From: Candidatus Margulisiibacteriota bacterium
GTDB taxonomy: Bacteria; Margulisbacteria; WOR-1; JAHJIW01
Reading direction: 5' to 3'
Assembly (NCBI GenBank): GCA_018823125.1
Contig: JAHJIW010000005.1
Span: forward strand, 1-64,000
DNA: 64,000 nucleotides
Shown: positions 2,843 to 22,313 of the stretch, piece after piece
Layout of the letters: every line of letters begins with the position of its first letter
Position numbering within the stretch: the first letter of the stretch is position 1
Position numbers and translations under genes: made by a program
Notes under the pieces: generated by a model
Seen by the model: the letters and a program-made list of their open reading frames with translations, nothing else
What the model was told of the DNA's origin: nothing
The model's database searches: none

Positions 2843-3844
2843 ATGATAGATAAACTGGTAAATAAAGCTAGACTGGTCAAGGTAACTCCTGACTACTTTG
2901 AGATATTGGGAACCGATATGGAAGAAGATGCTAATCAGCTTTTTGGTGAAGCCTTTGCTGCTTACCGGGAAGCTTGGGTGAAGAATCCCAAAGAAAATAT
3001 CGTAAGCGATTTTCCGCTTCATTTGGATGTTGAGGTAACCAATACCTGTAATTTAAGATGCACCATGTGTCAAATTCCTTTTGGCAAAATGAAGCCAGGT
3101 AGTATGGATATTGAATTGTATAAGAAAATATTAGATGAGATAAAGCGAAATTCACTTCCTTCGATAAAGTTTAATTTCCGGGGTGAGCCCTTGATGCATT
3201 CCCGGATAGTTGAGTTTGTAAGATTAGCAAAGGAAGCCGGGGTGCTGGAAGTACAATTTAATAGTAATGGGGCATTGTTAAACGATGATTTATCCAAAGC
3301 TCTGATTGACGCCGGTTTGGACCGCATTAAATTTTCAATTGATGGGGTCACTCCAGAAGTTTATAACTCAATCAGAAAGGGGACCACCTACGATAAAACC
3401 ATTCCCCGAGTGCTAAGATTTATTGAGATCAGAAATGCATTGGGTAAAAAGTTGCCCAGCGTGCAGGTCCAAATGGTTTATATGGAATCCAATCATAACG
3501 AAGCCCAAAAATACATAGAATTTTGGCAAGCTAAGGCTAATCGTATCGGGTTTTCGCGTTATCGTAGCAGCCAAAATCGATTGGGCGAAAAGGAAAGTGT
3601 TCAAAAGCTTGGTAAAAGATTTCCTTGTCACCAGCTGTGGCAGAGAATGGTTGTACTATGGGATGGAACGGTCCTAATGTGCTGTGGTGATCACCATATG
3701 CAATGTCCAATTGGGGACATCCATGAATCTTCGCTGGCGGATATTTGGCATAGTAAGAAACTAAATAATATCCGGCGTTTACATCTAGAACACAAATTTG
3801 ACGATGTTCCGGCCTGTGTGGGGTGCGAGGTTAATTATTTATGA
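2843..3844 (+). CDS. Radical SAM/SPASM protein
   Basis: Radical SAM enzyme of 333 residues. The Cx3Cx2C cluster (CNLRCTMC) is at about residues 69-76, followed by the 'FRGEPL' glycine region and 'KFSIDG' strand. A C-terminal SPASM-like domain has Cys in CHQLW, MCCGDH, CPIGD and CVGC, for one or two auxiliary Fe-S clusters. The start is set at ATG 2843 because AGGAGA lies 6 bases upstream; the in-frame TTG at 2828 lies before that site and is unlikely. The end overlaps the next ATG (ATGA). SPASM proteins in polysaccharide loci are usually uncharacterised sugar- or peptide-modifying enzymes. Here it precedes a divergent NeuB homologue, so modification of that sugar or of its acceptor is possible. 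Substrate unknown. Confidence 0.8.
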   Translation: MIDKLVNKARLVKVTPDYFEILGTDMEEDANQLFGEAFAAYREAWVKNPKENIVSDFPLHLDVEVTNTCNLRCTMCQIPFGKMKPGSMDIELYKKILDEIKRNSLPSIKFNFRGEPLMHSRIVEFVRLAKEAGVLEVQFNSNGALLNDDLSKALIDAGLDRIKFSIDGVTPEVYNSIRKGTTYDKTIPRVLRFIEIRNALGKKLPSVQVQMVYMESNHNEAQKYIEFWQAKANRIGFSRYRSSQNRLGEKESVQKLGKRFPCHQLWQRMVVLWDGTVLMCCGDHHMQCPIGDIHESSLADIWHSKKLNNIRRLHLEHKFDDVPACVGCEVNYL

Positions 3845-4854
3845 GGCGAAATAATAAAAGTAAACCGTCAATATTTCCTCTGCTAATTGCAGAAGTTGCC
3901 AATTGTCATGGAGGGAGCAAGCAATATATTGAGCAGTTGGTTGCTCAATTATTGAAAACTAAAGTTGACGCAATAAAATTTCAGCCGATTATCGCTCGAG
4001 AATTTATGTCTTTTCAACATAGCATGTTTAAGGTATTCAAATCGCTGGAATTTTCTCGGAGAACCTGGCAACAATTAGGGAAAAGAGTTAAAAAATCTGG
4101 GAAAAAGCTGCTTTTTGATGTTTATGGGGAAGTTTCCTTAAAGTTTGCGTTGGAGGCAGGGGCGGATATCCTTAAGATTCATGCCATGGATTTTGATAAT
4201 TTTGATTTTATAAAAACGGTTCTTAAACATAAAAAACCGTTGATTATTTCGACTGGAGGGGCAACTATAGACGAGATTGATCAAGTGATGAAGGTTACAA
4301 AAGGGCATCCGATTTGTTTGATGGTTGGGTTTCAAAATTTCCCTACTCCTGCAACTGAGGCAAATCTGGACCGGATCGACCTTTTGAAAAAAAGATTTGG
4401 ATGTCCGATAGGATTTATGGATCATGTTGGTAATGACAGTGTATTTGCTATGGTGCTGCCTTGTTTGGCACTGCTGCGCGGTGCTTCTACAATCGAAAAA
4501 CACGTTTATTTAAAAACACGGAAAACAAAATATGATTGGCAATCAGCATTAGATCCTAAGGCGATTGACGACTTAGCTGTTCTTTTGCGTAACACTTTGG
4601 ATGCCAAGGGCAAAGATAAATATGTACTTAGTAAACTGGAGAATAATTATAGAGAAAAATACCGCAAAAATGCGGTGGCAAAAAGAGATTTATCAAAAGG
4701 TAAAAAAGTTAAGGCTGGCGATATTGAATTTCTAAGAGGTGAGTTTTCTAAGAAGCAGACCCCAATTTATCGCAAAGATATGCCCGGCTTGTTATCTAAA
4801 GGGTTGAAACGCAAGGTAGTTGCCGGCCAGACGTTAGTTAAGGAGATGTTTTAA
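3841..4854 (+). CDS. Divergent nonulosonic-acid synthase (NeuB family, with SAF domain)
   Basis: NeuB-type PEP-condensing synthase, 337 residues: TIM barrel to about residue 270, then a C-terminal antifreeze-like SAF domain (KGKKVKAGDIEFLR, GLKRKVVAGQTL). The first strand reads IAEVANCHGG, followed by DAIKFQP. The two probable metal-ligand histidines of the family are kept, in 'GFMDHVGND' and 'STIEKHVYL'. The usual 'GYSDHT' and the Asp/His/Ser-rich substrate loop are changed ('YDWQSALDPKAID'). The reaction should still be aldol-type condensation of PEP with a six-carbon N-acyl sugar, but the substrate may differ from that of the canonical paralogue 750 bases downstream. It overlaps both neighbours (ATGA and TAATG). 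Being a duplicate with altered substrate motifs makes it one of the more interesting genes here. Confidence 0.78.
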   Translation: MRRNNKSKPSIFPLLIAEVANCHGGSKQYIEQLVAQLLKTKVDAIKFQPIIAREFMSFQHSMFKVFKSLEFSRRTWQQLGKRVKKSGKKLLFDVYGEVSLKFALEAGADILKIHAMDFDNFDFIKTVLKHKKPLIISTGGATIDEIDQVMKVTKGHPICLMVGFQNFPTPATEANLDRIDLLKKRFGCPIGFMDHVGNDSVFAMVLPCLALLRGASTIEKHVYLKTRKTKYDWQSALDPKAIDDLAVLLRNTLDAKGKDKYVLSKLENNYREKYRKNAVAKRDLSKGKKVKAGDIEFLRGEFSKKQTPIYRKDMPGLLSKGLKRKVVAGQTLVKEMF

Positions 4855-5594
4855 TGAAAGAGATTGTAGGGTTAGTGGCAGTAAGAACTGAATCAACTCG
4901 GTTGCCAAATAAGGCTTTTCGTTTGCTGAACGGCAAGCCTTTGCTTGAGGTATTGATTGACAGGTTAGCTGAGACGCCGTATCTCGATGATTTTGTTATC
5001 TGTACCACCCAAAGTTCAGCGGATGATAAAATTGAAAATTTCTGCAAAGAAAAACAGGTAAAATGTTATCGTGGTGAGGTCAAGAATGTTCTCGGCCGGT
5101 TTATTGGTGCTTCTGCAATGGTCCCTTCAGAATATGTGGTGCGGATTACCGGAGATAATCCTTTATCAGATTTTTATAATATGCATCAGTGTTTCGAATA
5201 TTTAAAATCAAAAAAAGCTGATTATTCACGGCCGGAAGGCGTGCCGCTGGGAACCGCTTGTGAAGTTATTCTAACCAAAGCCTTGCATGAATTAGATGAC
5301 AAGTCATTGGCGCATGATCTGTCCGAATACATGACTTATTTTTTTGAATTGGCTCCTTTTATCAAAGATGATTTGTACCAGGTTGAAGATCAATATAATT
5401 TTCCGGATTTGAGATTAACTGTTGATTATGAAAAGGATCTTTTATTTATTCAGGAAATCGTAAAGCATTTCAACGGGAAGATTCCCGCTTTGTCGGAGAT
5501 CGTCTCTTATTGCCGGTCGCTTCCAGACTATCCAAAAGTAAAAAGCGACGCGGCTATGGAAGCAGAAATAAAAAGCAAAATTATCTTTAAGTAA
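4854..5594 (+). CDS. spsF: SpsF/acylneuraminate cytidylyltransferase-like protein
   Basis: Cytidylyltransferase-fold protein of 246 residues related to SpsF and CMP-KDO/CMP-sialate synthetases. The N-terminus has a nucleotide loop (VAVRTESTRLPNKAFRLLNGKPLLE), then 'VICTTQSSADDKIENFC', 'RGEVKNVLGRF', and the metal-binding 'RITGDNPLSD' near residue 100. The start codon shares its A with the preceding TAA. Being sandwiched between two NeuB-family synthases, as in spsE-spsF pairs, it probably activates the acid made by one of them as a CMP-sugar. The family also contains members of unknown reaction, so the exact nucleotide and sugar are inferred. Confidence 0.72.
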   Translation: MKEIVGLVAVRTESTRLPNKAFRLLNGKPLLEVLIDRLAETPYLDDFVICTTQSSADDKIENFCKEKQVKCYRGEVKNVLGRFIGASAMVPSEYVVRITGDNPLSDFYNMHQCFEYLKSKKADYSRPEGVPLGTACEVILTKALHELDDKSLAHDLSEYMTYFFELAPFIKDDLYQVEDQYNFPDLRLTVDYEKDLLFIQEIVKHFNGKIPALSEIVSYCRSLPDYPKVKSDAAMEAEIKSKIIFK

Positions 5595-5607: not shown

Positions 5608-6669
5608 ATGGAAAAGGAAATTAATCTGGGCAATGGCGTTAAATTAGGAGGCGAAAATCATTGTGTCATTTTGCTGGATGCTGGAGTAAATCATAACAAT
5701 GACGTTGCGCGTGCCAAACTGCTGATGAAGACGGCCAAAGATGGTGGTGCAGATGCCATTAAATTTCAAACCTACACGGCGGGCGGGATTAGCACCCGTA
5801 AAGCCCCGCGCTATTGGGATCCCAAGCTGGATACCGATGGTGGCGGGAGTCAGTATGACATGTTCAAGAAAGTCGATGCTTTACCCAAAGCAGCATATTA
5901 CGAACTAAAAGATTATGCTAAAAAGTTAAAAATTGCATTTACATCTTCTCCATTTGACATGGAAAGTGCCCGGTTTTTGATTGAGTTAGACGTTGATTTT
6001 TATAAAATTGCTTCGGCCGAAGTGACTAATCTGGAAATGATCCAGTTGGTGGCAGAAACCGGTAAACCAATCATTCTTTCGACCGGGGCCTGTACCATTG
6101 ATGAAGTTAAGGAAGCCCTGCAAGTAATTTTTAAAACTGGGAATCGGCAGGTTGCTTTACAGCACTGTGTTTTAAGTTATCCCTGCAAAGATGAAGATGC
6201 CAATTTAGCGAAAATGACTAAGCTTAAACAGTTATTTCCTGATCTTCCGGTTGGTTATTCGGATCATACCTTAGGTACTAAGATTCCGTTAGCGGCCATT
6301 GCCCTGGGTGCCAAGTCTATTGAAAAGCATTATACCGTTGATAAGAGTTTGCCAGACAGTCCAGACCACGGATTGTCGCTCAGCGCAGATGAGCTGCCCG
6401 GTTTTATCCATGATGCGCGGCAGGTGGAAGCTTCGATCGGAGTTTATCATGATGGTTTTTATCAGGCAGAAGAAAAAGCTTGTCAGTATGCGCGCAAAAG
6501 TATTGTGGCGGTAAAGCCCATTCGCAAAGGAACTAAAATTACGGCTGAGATGCTTTCCTGTAAGCGACCTGGAACTGGAATCTACCCAAAGTTTTTAAAA
6601 CAAGTGGTGGGTAAAGAAGCCAAAATCGATATCGCTGAGGATGCAATCTTGCAGTGGGATATGGTATAG
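5608..6669 (+). CDS. neuB: N-acetylneuraminate/legionaminate synthase (NeuB/SpsE family)
   Basis: Canonical NeuB-family synthase, 353 residues, preceded by a GGGGG ribosome site. Motifs in order: DAGVNHNNDVARAK, DAIKFQTY, TSSPFDMESA, DFYKIASAE, KPIILSTGA, LQHCVLSYP, GYSDHTLG and SIEKHYTVDK, then a 'PDSPDHGLSL' substrate loop and a C-terminal SAF domain from about residue 285. The two metal-binding histidines (SDH, EKH) are present. It condenses PEP with an N-acetylmannosamine-like or 2,4-diacetamido-6-deoxy sugar to give a nine-carbon acid in the cytoplasm. The adjacent LegB-type dehydratase and GDP-sugar-type nucleotidyltransferase favour legionaminic-type over neuraminic acid, but the sequence alone does not separate LegI, PseI and NeuB. 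Confidence 0.88.
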   Translation: MEKEINLGNGVKLGGENHCVILLDAGVNHNNDVARAKLLMKTAKDGGADAIKFQTYTAGGISTRKAPRYWDPKLDTDGGGSQYDMFKKVDALPKAAYYELKDYAKKLKIAFTSSPFDMESARFLIELDVDFYKIASAEVTNLEMIQLVAETGKPIILSTGACTIDEVKEALQVIFKTGNRQVALQHCVLSYPCKDEDANLAKMTKLKQLFPDLPVGYSDHTLGTKIPLAAIALGAKSIEKHYTVDKSLPDSPDHGLSLSADELPGFIHDARQVEASIGVYHDGFYQAEEKACQYARKSIVAVKPIRKGTKITAEMLSCKRPGTGIYPKFLKQVVGKEAKIDIAEDAILQWDMV

Positions 6670-7395: not shown

Positions 7396-8106
7396 ATGAA
7401 AAAAGCAGTGATTATGGCAGGTGGAGAAGGGATCAGGTTGCGTCCTTTGACCTACGCGTTACCCAAACCGCTCTTGCCGATCGGTTCGTATACCGCGATC
7501 GAATACGTAATAAAAATGTTGGCGGAAAATGGCGTAGGGGAAGTATTTATTTTGGTTCATTATCAGCATCAGAAATTCGAAGTCTGTTTAGCGTATCAGA
7601 AAAAGTATGGCATAAAAATTAAATTGGTTAAAGAGGAAAGTAAATTGGGTACATTTGGTGGGTTGATCCATATCAAAAAGGAGTTAACTGATCCATTTTT
7701 GATTATCAATTCTGATATTATTACCCGCCTGGATGTAAAGGATATGTTTCGGGTCCACGATCAAAAAAATGCGGTTTGCACCTTAGGCGTTAGGAATTTT
7801 GCGCAAAAGGTGCCTTACGGAGTAGTCGAACTTGATAAAGATGATAATTTTATCGGTGTGGTGGAAAAACCGGTTAACAATTATTTAATTAGTGCCGGTA
7901 TTAATATTTTTTCGCCGGACGCCCTTAGTTATCTGGATGGCAAAAAATTAGATGTGCCGCAGGTAGTAGAACGTTTAAGCAGTGAAGGTAAAAAAATTGG
8001 GGTTTATAAAATTGATCGACCGTGGCTGGATATCGGACAGGCCAAAGATTATGAAAAAGCGATCGAGTTGTTAGAAATGGTGGAGGACCAAAATGACCAG
8101 GCCTAA
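7396..8106 (+). CDS. Sugar-1-phosphate nucleotidyltransferase (PtmE/GDP-sugar type)
   Basis: Nucleotidyltransferase of 236 residues with the signature MAGGEGIRLRPLTYALPKPLLPIG at residues 8-31, the Mg-binding 'INSDI' near 110, 'VPYGVVELD' and 'VEKPV', and a terminal 'PWLDIGQAKDYEKA'. This layout resembles the catalytic half of PtmE/LegE, which makes GDP-GlcN for legionaminic acid, without its CBS domains. RmlA- or mannose-1-P guanylyltransferase-type activity is an alternative. It overlaps the following SDR gene by 14 bases, showing tight coupling. In a locus with LegB and NeuB homologues, supplying the GDP-amino-sugar precursor is the most economical role, but this is inference. Confidence 0.78.
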   Translation: MKKAVIMAGGEGIRLRPLTYALPKPLLPIGSYTAIEYVIKMLAENGVGEVFILVHYQHQKFEVCLAYQKKYGIKIKLVKEESKLGTFGGLIHIKKELTDPFLIINSDIITRLDVKDMFRVHDQKNAVCTLGVRNFAQKVPYGVVELDKDDNFIGVVEKPVNNYLISAGINIFSPDALSYLDGKKLDVPQVVERLSSEGKKIGVYKIDRPWLDIGQAKDYEKAIELLEMVEDQNDQA

Positions 8107-8971
8107 TAAAATTCTGGTGACCGGGTCATCCGGATTTATCGGTAAATATTTTATCAATAAACTAAAGTCAGAAAATATCGAATTCGTTGAATGCGATTTA
8201 GCTTTAGGTACGGATATCTTGGATTTAGATGCGGTTTTAGCGCTTCCACCAGTGGATACGGTGGTACATTTAGCCGCGAATACCAACGTGCAGGAAGCTT
8301 TTAAAAATCCATATGGTTTATATCATGATAATATTTTAGGGACCTTAAATGTTTTGGAATATTGTCGACAAAAAAAAGTTAAGCGGATCGTGTTTTCTAG
8401 TTCCTACGTTTACGGAAAACCGCAATACTTACCGGTTGATGAAAAGCATCCGATTGAGATTGATAATCCGTACGGCAGAAGTAAGCTGATTGGCGAATCA
8501 TTGGTTTCTGCGTTCAGTAAGGATAATAATATGGATGCGGTGATTTTAAGGAACTTTAATATTTTTGGCGCTCATCAAAACTCCCGGTTTTTGATTGCAA
8601 CTATTTTAGATCAGTTGTTTTCAGATGCTAAAGAGATTAGCTTAAAAGATTTGTCTCCCAAACGAGATTTTATTTATATAAAAGATATTATTGACGCATT
8701 TTTTGTTAGTTGTCAGCTTGAATCTTTAAAGGGCATTAATATTTTTAATCTGGGAATTGGGCAGTCGTATTCGGTTGAAGAGGTTCTGGCGTTAGTTTTT
8801 AAAGTAAGTGGGGTCCGTAAACCCGTTGTGGGATTAGGGGTTTCCAGAAGAAACGAGATTCCAGATACGGTAGCTGATATTAAACAAGCCAAAGAGCAAT
8901 TGGGTTGGCAACCGAGTTTCACTTTTGAAGAGGGACTTAAAGACATGCTTAAAATTGAGGGGCGGATTTAA
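8093..8971 (+). CDS. NAD-dependent sugar epimerase/dehydratase (extended SDR)
   Basis: Extended short-chain dehydrogenase, 292 residues. The Rossmann motif is VTGSSGFIGKYF (about residues 9-20), with 'VVHLAANTNV' and the catalytic triad in 'SSSYVYG' and 'NPYGRSK'. The C-terminus 'AKEQLGWQPSFTFEEGLKDML' is typical of UDP-hexose 4-epimerases and related decarboxylases/dehydratases. It overlaps the nucleotidyltransferase gene and ends immediately before the cytidylyltransferase gene (stop and start adjacent). A step in making the amino-sugar precursor of the nonulosonate is likely from context; the precise reaction is not determinable. Confidence 0.82.
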   Translation: MTRPNKILVTGSSGFIGKYFINKLKSENIEFVECDLALGTDILDLDAVLALPPVDTVVHLAANTNVQEAFKNPYGLYHDNILGTLNVLEYCRQKKVKRIVFSSSYVYGKPQYLPVDEKHPIEIDNPYGRSKLIGESLVSAFSKDNNMDAVILRNFNIFGAHQNSRFLIATILDQLFSDAKEISLKDLSPKRDFIYIKDIIDAFFVSCQLESLKGINIFNLGIGQSYSVEEVLALVFKVSGVRKPVVGLGVSRRNEIPDTVADIKQAKEQLGWQPSFTFEEGLKDMLKIEGRI

Positions 8972-9676
8972 ATGTATAAAGGAAAAAAGGTACTAGCGAT
9001 TATCCCGGCGCGGGGAAGGAACGACGGGATAAAACATATGAATATGCGTGAATTAGGTGGTAAACCCCTGATTTATTACACGATTAAGGCTGCGCAGCAG
9101 TGTGATTTTATTGATAAGTTGGTAGTTTCAACCGAAGATGCCGAAATTGCTGAATACGCAAAATCCCTTGGGGTCGAGGTTCCGTTCTTGAGATCGTCTG
9201 AGCTGGCAGGGGAAACGGTAGTCATGCAAGATATTATTGATGAGATTTTATCCTTTTATAAAAAGAGGGGAGAGCAGTACGATTATTTATTAAATTTCTA
9301 CCCTAATGCACCTTTTAAATCGAAAGAACTAATCTTAAAGTTTGTAGATAAAATTGCGGATTATGATTGTGTGATCCCTTTATTTGCTCACAAAAATTAT
9401 TTTTGGGAAGAAAAAGGAAATCAGGTTCACTTAACCATTGATAAACAAAGAACTACTCGTAAAACGGCAATCAAAAAATATGAAGAATTAGGTGGAATTT
9501 ATGCTTTTAATCTGGCCAGTGAAAGATGGCGGGGTGGGCCGGACGCGAAGATTGGTTTTTGCGAATTGGATTTTCATGATTCACGGATGGTTAATTCGGT
9601 TTACGATTTAATTATGTTAGATCGGCTGGTTACCTTGCCGAAAACCTTGGTAAATGATTTATTAGATTTTGAATAA
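8972..9676 (+). CDS. neuA: CMP-nonulosonate cytidylyltransferase (NeuA-like, atypical P-loop)
   Basis: Cytidylyltransferase-like protein of 234 residues. It starts as IIPARGRNDGIKHMNMRELGGKPLIYYTI. The family consensus is IPARGGSKGIPRKN, so the nucleotide-binding loop here carries R-N-D-G and H-M-N in place of G-S-K-G and R-K-N. The later 'VVSTEDAEIAEYAK' is normal, while the usual 'LQPTSPLR' is 'FYPNAPFKS'. It probably activates the product of one of the two NeuB homologues as a CMP-sugar, but the altered loop leaves room for another nucleotide or weaker activity. The ATG directly follows the preceding TAA. Confidence 0.72.
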   Translation: MYKGKKVLAIIPARGRNDGIKHMNMRELGGKPLIYYTIKAAQQCDFIDKLVVSTEDAEIAEYAKSLGVEVPFLRSSELAGETVVMQDIIDEILSFYKKRGEQYDYLLNFYPNAPFKSKELILKFVDKIADYDCVIPLFAHKNYFWEEKGNQVHLTIDKQRTTRKTAIKKYEELGGIYAFNLASERWRGGPDAKIGFCELDFHDSRMVNSVYDLIMLDRLVTLPKTLVNDLLDFE

Positions 9677-9689
9677 GAGGAGAAGAATT

Positions 9690-10682
9690 ATGAGCTTAAA
9701 AAATAAAAAGGTTTTAGTTACTGGGGCAGAGGGTTTTATCGGTAGTTATCTGGTAGAAGAACTTTTAAACCGGGGGGCCAAAGTCAGGGCCTTTGTTTTA
9801 TATAACTTTTCTAATAGTTGGGGATGGCTGGATACATTAAAAAAAGAAGACCAGGCAAAAATCGAAATCTTTACCGGAAATATTTGTGAAGCCTACAACG
9901 TGAGAAAGGCCATGGAAGGGGTAGACGTGGTGTTTCACCTCGGCGCTTTGATTGCTATCCCATATTCTTATTATTCTCCGGAATCTTATGTTTCGACCAA
10001 TGTAATGGGAACGCTAAATGTTTTGCAGGCAGCGCGCGAAGCAAAAGTGGAAAAGTTTGTGCATACTTCAACCAGTGAAACCTACGGCACCGCTATTTAT
10101 GTGCCGATCGACGAGAAGCACCCCTTACAGGGACAGTCTCCTTATTCAGCTTCAAAAATTGGAGCCGATATGATTGCAGAAAGCTTTTATCGTTCGTTTG
10201 GGATGCCGGTAGCGATTTGTCGGCCATTTAATACCTTTGGCCCCCGACAATCGGCGCGGGCCATTATTCCTACGATTATTAGTCAAATTGCGGCGGGTAA
10301 GAAAAAAATAAAATTAGGATCGTTAACTCCAGTGAGGGACCTTACTTTTGTTAGAGATACAGCCTTGGGCTTTGTCAAGATTGCTGAATCAAGTAAAAGC
10401 ATTGGTGAAGTTATCAACCTCGGAAGCGGAGTAGGCATTACCATAGGAGATTTGGTAGAAAAAATAATAACATTGATGGGGACCAAGGTGGAAATTGAAT
10501 GTGAAGAAAAGCGGGTGCGCCCGGAGAAAAGTGAAGTTATGAAGCTTATTTGTAATAATAAAAAAGCCCTTGAGTATGTTGGCTGGAAACCGGCATATTC
10601 ATTAGATCAAGGATTGACCGAAACCATCGATTATATCAAGAATAATTTAAATTATTATAAACCGGATATTTATAATGTCTAA
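9690..10682 (+). CDS. legB: NAD-dependent 4,6-dehydratase, LegB type
   Basis: Extended SDR of 330 residues, very like LegB (first enzyme of CMP-legionaminate synthesis, acting on GDP- or UDP-GlcNAc). Distinctive features are the Rossmann loop VTGAEGFIGSYL, 'FNSWGWLD'-like 'FSNSWGWLD' near residue 50, 'AALIAIPYSY'-type 'LGALIAIPYSYYSP', 'HTSTSETYGTA', 'YVPIDEKHPLQGQSPYSASK' with catalytic Tyr/Lys, and 'RPFNTFGPRQSARA'. The start is ATG 9690, preceded by AGAGGAGAAG; an upstream in-frame start at 9669 overlaps the previous gene and lacks a site. The LegC aminotransferase that should act on its product is not in the window. Confidence 0.85.
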   Translation: MSLKNKKVLVTGAEGFIGSYLVEELLNRGAKVRAFVLYNFSNSWGWLDTLKKEDQAKIEIFTGNICEAYNVRKAMEGVDVVFHLGALIAIPYSYYSPESYVSTNVMGTLNVLQAAREAKVEKFVHTSTSETYGTAIYVPIDEKHPLQGQSPYSASKIGADMIAESFYRSFGMPVAICRPFNTFGPRQSARAIIPTIISQIAAGKKKIKLGSLTPVRDLTFVRDTALGFVKIAESSKSIGEVINLGSGVGITIGDLVEKIITLMGTKVEIECEEKRVRPEKSEVMKLICNNKKALEYVGWKPAYSLDQGLTETIDYIKNNLNYYKPDIYNV

Positions 10683-20802: not shown

Positions 20803-20859
20803 ATGAAAATAATGCGGTTAACCAATGCATATCTCCCTGAAATCAGGAGGATAATGTGA
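20803..20859 (+). pseudogene. Truncated 5' end of a GT4 gene; possible leader for the next gene
   Basis: An 18-codon frame, ATG 20803 to TGA 20859, encodes MKIMRLTNAYLPEI and then diverges. The first 42 bases match the start of the GT4 gene at 22365 (MKVMFLTNAYPPEI) at about 34 of 42 positions. Its TGA overlaps the GTG start of the radical SAM gene (ATGTGA), so if translated it could couple translation of that gene. AAGG lies 10-13 bases before its ATG. Origin as a cut-off gene copy is inferred; an unrelated short leader is possible because this N-terminal motif is common in GT4. Confidence 0.6.
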
Positions 20860-22313
20860 ATATATTATTCATTTATTCATTATATGATGCTGATTCTCCA
20901 GAAAAGCCAATGTATACTCCAGAGTATATACAATTTGGCATTTCATATATTTCTGCGCTTTTAAAAAAACATGGACACCAAACCAAATTGTTAGTTCTGA
21001 GTAGGCTTTTTGGGAACAAAAACACTGAAATTATTGATGCCGTAATTCACGAATTTCAACCAAAATTAATTTGTTTTACTGCGGTTAGCACTGAATATAA
21101 TTTTATTTCAAGTTTAGCGAAATACATAAAGGGCCGTTATGGAAATATTTATCTATTAGTTGGTGGGCCGCATGCTTCTTTGAACCCTCATGATGTTATT
21201 AATGATGATTTTGATGCGGTGTGTGTTGGTGAGGGTGAATACCCTACGCTTGAATTAGTTTTACAATTAAAAAAAGGTAAAATTCTTACAAAGATTCCTA
21301 ATCTGTGGATAAAGCATAGTACAGAAGTTGAGATGAATGCGACCCGCCCATTTATTCAAGATCTTGATAATTTGCCATTTCCTGATAGAGAAATGTGGAA
21401 GGAATGGATTGATGAACAACCTGGGTCAAGGTATGCGGTTTTATTAGGTCGCGGTTGTCCATTTCAATGTACTTATTGCTGTAATCATGCTTTAAAGAAG
21501 TTGGCAAAAGGACCCTATGTTAGGTATCGATCTCCAGAAAATATTATAAAAGAAATTGAAGACATTGCGATTGCTTCCCCAAAAACAAGAGAGCTTTATT
21601 TGGAAATTGAAACTATAGGAGCAAATAAAAAATGGGCAATGGATTTGTGTGCACAGTTGAAAAATTTAAATGCAACGTTTGAGCAGCCATTTACTTTTGG
21701 GGTCAATATAAGGATTATGCCTAATGTTGATTATGATGAATTATTTGCGACATTGAAAGAAAGTAATTTTAAATCTATAAATATTGGACTTGAGTCTGGA
21801 AGTGAGAGAATACGCAGAGAAATTCTAAAGCGGAATTACTCTAACCGCGATATTATTAGCGCTGTTAATTTGGCTAGGAAATATGGGTTGAAGGTTAGCT
21901 TTTATAATATGTTAGGCTTTCCTACTGAAACTTTGGCTGATTTTATGGAAACCATCAAAATTAATCGTACTTGTATGCCTGATTATCATAATACTTCGAT
22001 CTTTTTTCCATATCCAGGAACTTCTTTATACGCTTTATGTAAGGAGCATGGATTATTAAAGAAACCCCTTGATGTTGATATGGAAAGAAACAGAGCCGTC
22101 TTAGATCTTAAGTCATTCACAAAGAAGCAAGTGCAAAAAAAATATGTATGGTTTGACTATTATATTTATAAAGGGCGTAAACCCATGTATAAAATATTAA
22201 TGAGAATTTTTGTATTAAAGCTTAGGTCAATATCTCTTGTTGGCCATTTTTATAATCGCCTTAAACGGTCATTTATGTATAAGTGGATGAGAAATAAATT
22301 AAGAGATAAATAG
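20856..22313 (+). CDS. B12-binding-domain radical SAM protein (BchE-like)
   Basis: Radical SAM protein of 485 residues with an N-terminal cobalamin-binding-like domain: 'YIQFGISYISALLKKHGHQ', 'VGGPHASLNPHDVI', 'DAVCVGEGEYPTLEL'. The cluster motif CPFQCTYC is at residues 201-208 with an extra Cys at 209. Later 'SINIGLESGSERIRREILKRNYSN' and 'FYNMLGFPTET' are typical of the class B methyltransferase/BchE group. The start is GTG 20856 with AGGAGG five bases upstream; ATG 20854 is followed immediately by TGA and cannot be used. Such enzymes methylate unactivated carbons or rearrange rings; in this locus an unusual sugar or lipid carbon is a candidate, without proof. Confidence 0.85.
   Translation: MNILFIYSLYDADSPEKPMYTPEYIQFGISYISALLKKHGHQTKLLVLSRLFGNKNTEIIDAVIHEFQPKLICFTAVSTEYNFISSLAKYIKGRYGNIYLLVGGPHASLNPHDVINDDFDAVCVGEGEYPTLELVLQLKKGKILTKIPNLWIKHSTEVEMNATRPFIQDLDNLPFPDREMWKEWIDEQPGSRYAVLLGRGCPFQCTYCCNHALKKLAKGPYVRYRSPENIIKEIEDIAIASPKTRELYLEIETIGANKKWAMDLCAQLKNLNATFEQPFTFGVNIRIMPNVDYDELFATLKESNFKSINIGLESGSERIRREILKRNYSNRDIISAVNLARKYGLKVSFYNMLGFPTETLADFMETIKINRTCMPDYHNTSIFFPYPGTSLYALCKEHGLLKKPLDVDMERNRAVLDLKSFTKKQVQKKYVWFDYYIYKGRKPMYKILMRIFVLKLRSISLVGHFYNRLKRSFMYKWMRNKLRDK

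Follow-up and report, generated by a model that had tools for sequence, protein, structure and literature searches.

What does a radical SAM enzyme do beside a nonulosonic acid synthase and a cytidylyltransferase? The question is raised by three consecutive forward-strand genes in the stretch of Candidatus Margulisiibacteriota DNA analysed here (64,000 nucleotides, hereafter the window). The host genome is 1.73 Mb in size (94% complete), and the nearest named relative with the locus is a WOR-1 bacterium. ORF and domain calls confirmed the gene layout proposed in a preliminary description: a twitch-type, BtrN-like radical SAM protein (rSAM, 333 aa; 2843–3844, ATG at 2843 and stop ending at 3844), a divergent NeuB-type ulosonic acid synthase (NeuBx, 337 aa; 3841–4854) and an SpsF-like CTP_transf_3 cytidylyltransferase (SpsFx, 246 aa; 4854–5594), joined by an ATGA overlap at the rSAM/NeuBx junction and a TAATG overlap at the NeuBx/SpsFx junction. 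To our knowledge, the enzymes behind the known nonulosonic acids are dehydratases, aminotransferases, acetyltransferases and aldol-type synthases. The open-licence papers searched contained none combining 'radical SAM' with 'legionaminic' or 'nonulosonic', which agrees with the earlier statement that no established pathway was known to link a SPASM protein to a nonulosonate synthase. The reading we favour, with a probability of about 0.6, is that the trio is a surface-polysaccharide pathway module in which a BtrN-type radical step acts together with NeuBx and SpsFx to give a CMP-activated ulosonic acid; the trio probably builds an unusual acidic surface sugar.

The radical SAM identity of the first protein stood up well (PF04055, 5e-20), and the CX3CX2C motif is present with C69, C73 and C76 invariant. 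The SPASM label, on the other hand, did not hold. The protein matches PF13186 (SPASM, 2e-15) and has only four conserved cysteines after the radical SAM domain (C262, C280, C325 and C328), predicted to form a single auxiliary cluster, and it is therefore of the twitch type; a full SPASM enzyme, with seven cysteines and two auxiliary clusters, was rejected. BtrN (2-deoxy-scyllo-inosamine dehydrogenase) is the best PDB match both by sequence (E 8e-13) and by fold (4m7t, E 5e-14; model pLDDT 89.8), and residues 261–328 of rSAM, the region of the auxiliary-cluster cysteines, align to it without gaps. Further fold matches are BlsE, DesII and SpeY, enzymes that act on sugar-type substrates. Overall identity to BtrN is only ~20%, rSAM has an N-terminal extension of ~50 residues, and BtrN makes a precursor of an aminocyclitol antibiotic whereas rSAM adjoins a NeuB/SpsF pair. 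BtrN, itself of the twitch type, ligates its auxiliary cluster through four Cys residues and catalyses the oxidation of a secondary alcohol on a cyclitol (PMC9012708). Also invariant among the rSAMs of the trio clade is RIGFSRYRS, an Arg-rich stretch and possible anion-binding site.

NeuBx belongs to the NeuB family (PF03102, 119.5 bits, 2e-34, against a gathering score of 22.1) and falls far under the equivalog cut-offs of TIGR03569 and TIGR03586 (NeuB_NnaB and PseI; 132 vs 400 and 112 vs 340 bits, respectively). Its model (pLDDT 93.6) most resembles PseI (TM 0.83) and NeuB (TM 0.79), and the fold is common to NeuB, PseI and SpsE (PDB 1xuu, 8h2c, 1vli and 6ncs; TM 0.6–0.83), with which NeuBx also has the metal/PEP residues in common and, as judged by fold, a putative AFP-like C-terminal domain. 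The metal-binding His pair (H195, H221) and the PEP-binding Lys and Ser residues (K46, K112, S137) are kept, and the alignment to Nme NeuB shows counterparts of K53, Q55, K129, S154, H215, H236, D247 and R314. The C-terminal domain gives no PF08666 match; the KRPGTGI motif is lost except for its Arg (R299, the counterpart of R314), and this Arg is in turn lost in the orthologue from one WOR-1 genome, G064 (locus L045). Four positions differ from Neisseria NeuB (E134D, N184Q, Y186F and S213M); the first three changes are common to all four NeuBx orthologues, and the position of S213 is Ala in the orthologue from genome G074 (locus L023). In NeuB, Asn184, Tyr186 and Ser213 lie at the ligand site and Arg314 is essential (PMC6795526). 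Since the metal/PEP residues are kept while several sugar-site residues are changed, we infer that NeuBx still works as a synthase condensing PEP, but with another acceptor.

The assignment of the third gene as a cytidylyltransferase was supported by its CTP_transf_3 domain (PF02348, 85.7 bits, 5e-24), from which the activity is predicted. SpsFx orthologues are 62–72% identical, and the sole solved relative is the cytidylyltransferase 6oew. A NeuB-type synthase gene adjoining an SpsF-type cytidylyltransferase gene is also seen in Bacillus spore-coat clusters, as the SpsE-SpsF pair; we know of no twitch radical SAM gene in the Bacillus sps operon. The spiro-SPASM model TIGR04321 aligns by its N-terminal part to SpsFx and by its C-terminal part to rSAM. 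The scores (102 bits for one protein and 23 for the other, against a cut-off of 250) place neither protein in this family, whose members are one long protein lacking a NeuB part, as opposed to the separate genes found here.

The preliminary description took the stop/start overlaps as evidence that the three genes form a functional unit. We dropped this argument because the entire 17-kb cluster is just as tightly packed, with intergenic gaps from -29 to +82 bp (-13, 11, -4, -1, 13, -29, 2, -14, 0, 10, 22, -23, -1, -26, -4, 9 and 82 bp between the first consecutive genes), so that the overlaps within the trio are not distinctive. A scan for promoters and terminators gave no excess over shuffled sequences. 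The better evidence for a unit is conservation, and for close orthologues this part of the claim was upheld by the linkage in three genomes. Close rSAM orthologues, taken as those with 59–74% identity, were found in two WOR-1 genomes (G063 and G064) and in G074, a MAG titled Clostridia and belonging to another phylum; in all of these readable loci, NeuBx and SpsFx genes lie beside the rSAM gene. Orthologues of NeuBx and rSAM occur in the same 3 of the 74 genomes of the phylum, and neither was seen without the other among the genomes examined. In G063 the trio has the same order (74, 57 and 68% identity for rSAM, NeuBx and SpsFx, respectively). G064 has a contig break inside rSAM, followed by NeuBx, a methyltransferase, a B12-binding radical SAM protein and SpsFx.

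In G074, too, the trio has the same order (60, 49 and 62% identity). The phylum of this MAG was represented by three genomes in the comparison, and the contig is only 16 kb long, making mis-binning possible. The genes upstream of the trio in G074 encode a CMP-transferase, an HMGL-like aldolase and a PfkB kinase, the last two lying directly upstream (L023, 3880–6667); the trio thus remains contiguous although its flanking genes in G074 are not those found in WOR-1. In a further genome, G067, an SpsFx orthologue lies beside the same B12 radical SAM and methyltransferase genes as in G064; the preceding 7.5 kb (L235, 1–7501) reads N, and the locus is therefore unusable as a counter-example to the linkage. 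The close trio is accordingly known from only four loci, plus the one in G067 with masked upstream DNA. According to the preliminary description, a radical SAM gene found independently of the NeuB/SpsF pair in most relatives would speak against the association. This was not observed for the 59–74% orthologues, since the trio is kept in G063, G064 and G074, but it is largely true of the wider family (~20–37%).

The genes around the trio point to surface-carbohydrate synthesis; those given below with coordinates are on the forward strand. The window begins at the contig end, and the first gene (1–1023) is therefore truncated; its ORF, open from base 1, is what is left of the 3' portion of a longer surface-carbohydrate gene, the matching proteins in L022 and L046 being 658 and 671 aa long, respectively. 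It is followed by a gene for a large surface-carbohydrate protein, a probable glycosyltransferase (1011–2831; weak TIGR04326/TIGR04396 matches), which lies directly upstream of the trio, has the same position beside rSAM in G063 and G064, and has a relative in the G074 locus. Homologues of both proteins were also found in L048 (9096–19499) together with KdsA/KdsB/KdsC-like genes and an rSAM paralogue, company which hints that the two proteins use CMP-Kdo-type donors. Downstream of the trio come, in order, a second, canonical-type NeuB/LegI synthase (5608–6669; PF03102 2e-78, SAF 7e-15; 68–80% orthologues in L022 and L023), a GT2 gene, a PtmE-like sugar-1-phosphate nucleotidylyltransferase (7396–8106; PF00483; conserved in L022, L235 and one rhizobial locus), an NAD-dependent SDR, possibly a sugar reductase or epimerase (8093–8971; PF01370), a second CMP-NulO-type cytidylyltransferase (8972–9676; PF02348; best NCBIfam model PseF, below cut-off) and a LegB sugar-nucleotide 4,6-dehydratase (9687–10682; TIGR04180, 485 bits vs a cut-off of 475). 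The cluster thus contains two synthases and two CMP-transferases, and rSAM adjoins the divergent pair. No aminotransferase was noticed among the genes of the window, the DegT matches of the genome being on other contigs.

Distant relatives of rSAM (~20–37% identity) occur in mixed contexts, most of them not beside NulO genes in the collections searched; they are common in glycan clusters generally, and most rSAM paralogues of the phylum also sit elsewhere than in NulO loci. The association of rSAM with NulO genes is recurrent. In two rhizobial megaplasmids a 33% relative is found in the order LegB-(PtmE)-SDR-rSAM-(acetyltransferase)-NeuB-SpsF-SpsG-like, and the SDR genes directly upstream of rSAM in both loci encode 36–37% relatives of the SDR in the window. 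Scanning a viral collection for the motif KFN[FYW]RGEP gave six rSAMs. A CMP-transferase gene lies at most four genes away in four of the six, as compared with 3 of 62 distinct motif-less rSAMs (p = 6e-4; three of the six had helped define the motif); the remaining 59 motif-less rSAMs have no CMP-transferase within four genes. NeuB proximity was not enriched in the motif-bearing viral rSAMs (p = 0.3). In L083/L215 the rSAM gene overlaps SpsF, and NeuB and a terminase gene are on the contig; in L072/L216 it adjoins a GT2/CTP_transf fusion and NeuB, in L221 it adjoins a CTP_transf/GT2 fusion, and in L061/L214 it lies near a B12 radical SAM gene and a GT2/CTP_transf fusion. The contig of a fifth (L220) carries NeuB and a weak CMP-transferase-like gene, and that of the sixth (L217) is too short to judge. 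The fusions in L061, L072 and L221 are single proteins that combine a GT2 glycosyltransferase with a CTP_transf_3 domain, in both orders. Among the distant relatives, the rSAM/CMP-transferase pair is the most recurrent association.

Other rSAM relatives pair with DegT aminotransferases. In L040 (7968–10066) and L041 (7995–10039), which are Deltaproteobacteria and Lawsonia plasmids, a DegT-type aminotransferase gene comes directly after the rSAM paralogue, and asparagine synthase is encoded nearby; such a layout would be expected if a radical dehydrogenase supplied a transaminase with its substrate. The rSAM tree gives good support to the clade of the close trio and to that of the phages, but does not join the two. 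A single clade for all NulO-linked members is unsupported, the NulO label requiring at least six changes on starred branches, and since the tree does not unite them, the distant NulO-linked cases may differ in function. A plasmid search with NeuBx returned only generic NeuB/PseI proteins (23–27%), and a search of annotated phages with rSAM only weak matches. Neither the NeuBx motif GFQxFPTP nor the rSAM motif MCQIPF led to any relatives when viral sequences were scanned for them.

Taken as a pathway, the trio would work as follows. NeuBx would condense PEP with a sugar acceptor, putatively an unusual aldose, to an ulosonic acid, which SpsFx would activate with CTP to the CMP form. By means of a 5'-deoxyadenosyl radical, rSAM would act on the sugar, most probably oxidising a secondary alcohol to a ketone (a two-electron step) or catalysing the related epimerisation; it may do so on the acceptor, ahead of the condensation, or on the acid, whether free or linked to CMP. 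The large glycosyltransferase-like proteins encoded at 1–2831 would then transfer the product. Several points count against this scheme: the trio itself has neither an aminotransferase nor a reductase dedicated to a ketone made by the radical step, the close trio is known from few loci, most distant rSAM relatives lie away from NulO genes, and the rSAM tree does not unite the NulO-linked members.

In a possible, though rather doubtful, alternative, rSAM acts on a CMP-linked sugar or on the ulosonic acid itself, after NeuBx, its true partner being SpsF and the link to NeuB secondary. A close rSAM/CMP-transferase partnership is favoured by the spiro-SPASM model, which spans both proteins, and by the phage pairs; the pair is commoner than rSAM/NeuB, as judged by the viral counts given above and by the overlapping genes in L083, and the Arg-rich stretch could serve as an anion-binding site. 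Set against this, NeuBx is always present in the close orthologues, between rSAM and SpsFx, and NeuB is on the same contig in L215, L216 and L220. It is unlikely that rSAM merely hitch-hikes, modifying another sugar, a lipid or a protein of the same polymer independently of the NeuBx/SpsFx product: two phyla have retained the linkage despite different flanking genes, and rSAM occurs independently with NulO genes in rhizobia and phages, even though members of the wider family are common in glycan clusters that lack NulO genes, DegT aminotransferases being one example of their neighbours, and the tight packing of the cluster makes overlap alone uninformative. Quite improbable, finally, is that the product of NeuBx and SpsFx is an ordinary acid of the legionaminic or pseudaminic type and that the divergence reflects drift alone. 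The kept metal/PEP residues and R314 counterpart would fit such a role, as would the LegB, LegI and CMP-transferase genes next door, but a separate canonical LegI and CMP-transferase are present in the same cluster, and E134D, N184Q and Y186F are common to all four NeuBx orthologues.

In the favoured reading, the radical step would open sugar positions beyond the reach of the known nonulosonic-acid enzymes, and new acidic sugars would be predicted on bacterial and phage surfaces. The broader proposal that the BtrN-like rSAM family performs an undescribed step in CMP-ulosonic acid synthesis, on the sugar of a NeuB/SpsF-type pathway, and has been repeatedly acquired by several phyla and phages in compact glycan cassettes, is put forward tentatively, as somewhat short of an even chance. 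The conserved trio represents a small, testable gene set that offers a BtrN-like enzyme candidate partners, and it may help to show what the spiro-SPASM family does.

Two further observations concern radical SAM genes outside the trio. The same polysaccharide region of the window encodes a B12-binding radical SAM protein (20856–22313), relatives of which lie between NeuBx and SpsFx in G064 (L045, 2589–4091), beside SpsFx in G067 (L235) and next to rSAM in the phage contig L061. The genome also carries a second NulO-type locus on contig C3 (L231, 30000–46000), with genes for a DegT aminotransferase, a B12 radical SAM protein, a Gfo/Idh-type oxidoreductase, SpsF, a GSA-like aminotransferase, a TIM-barrel protein and NeuB.
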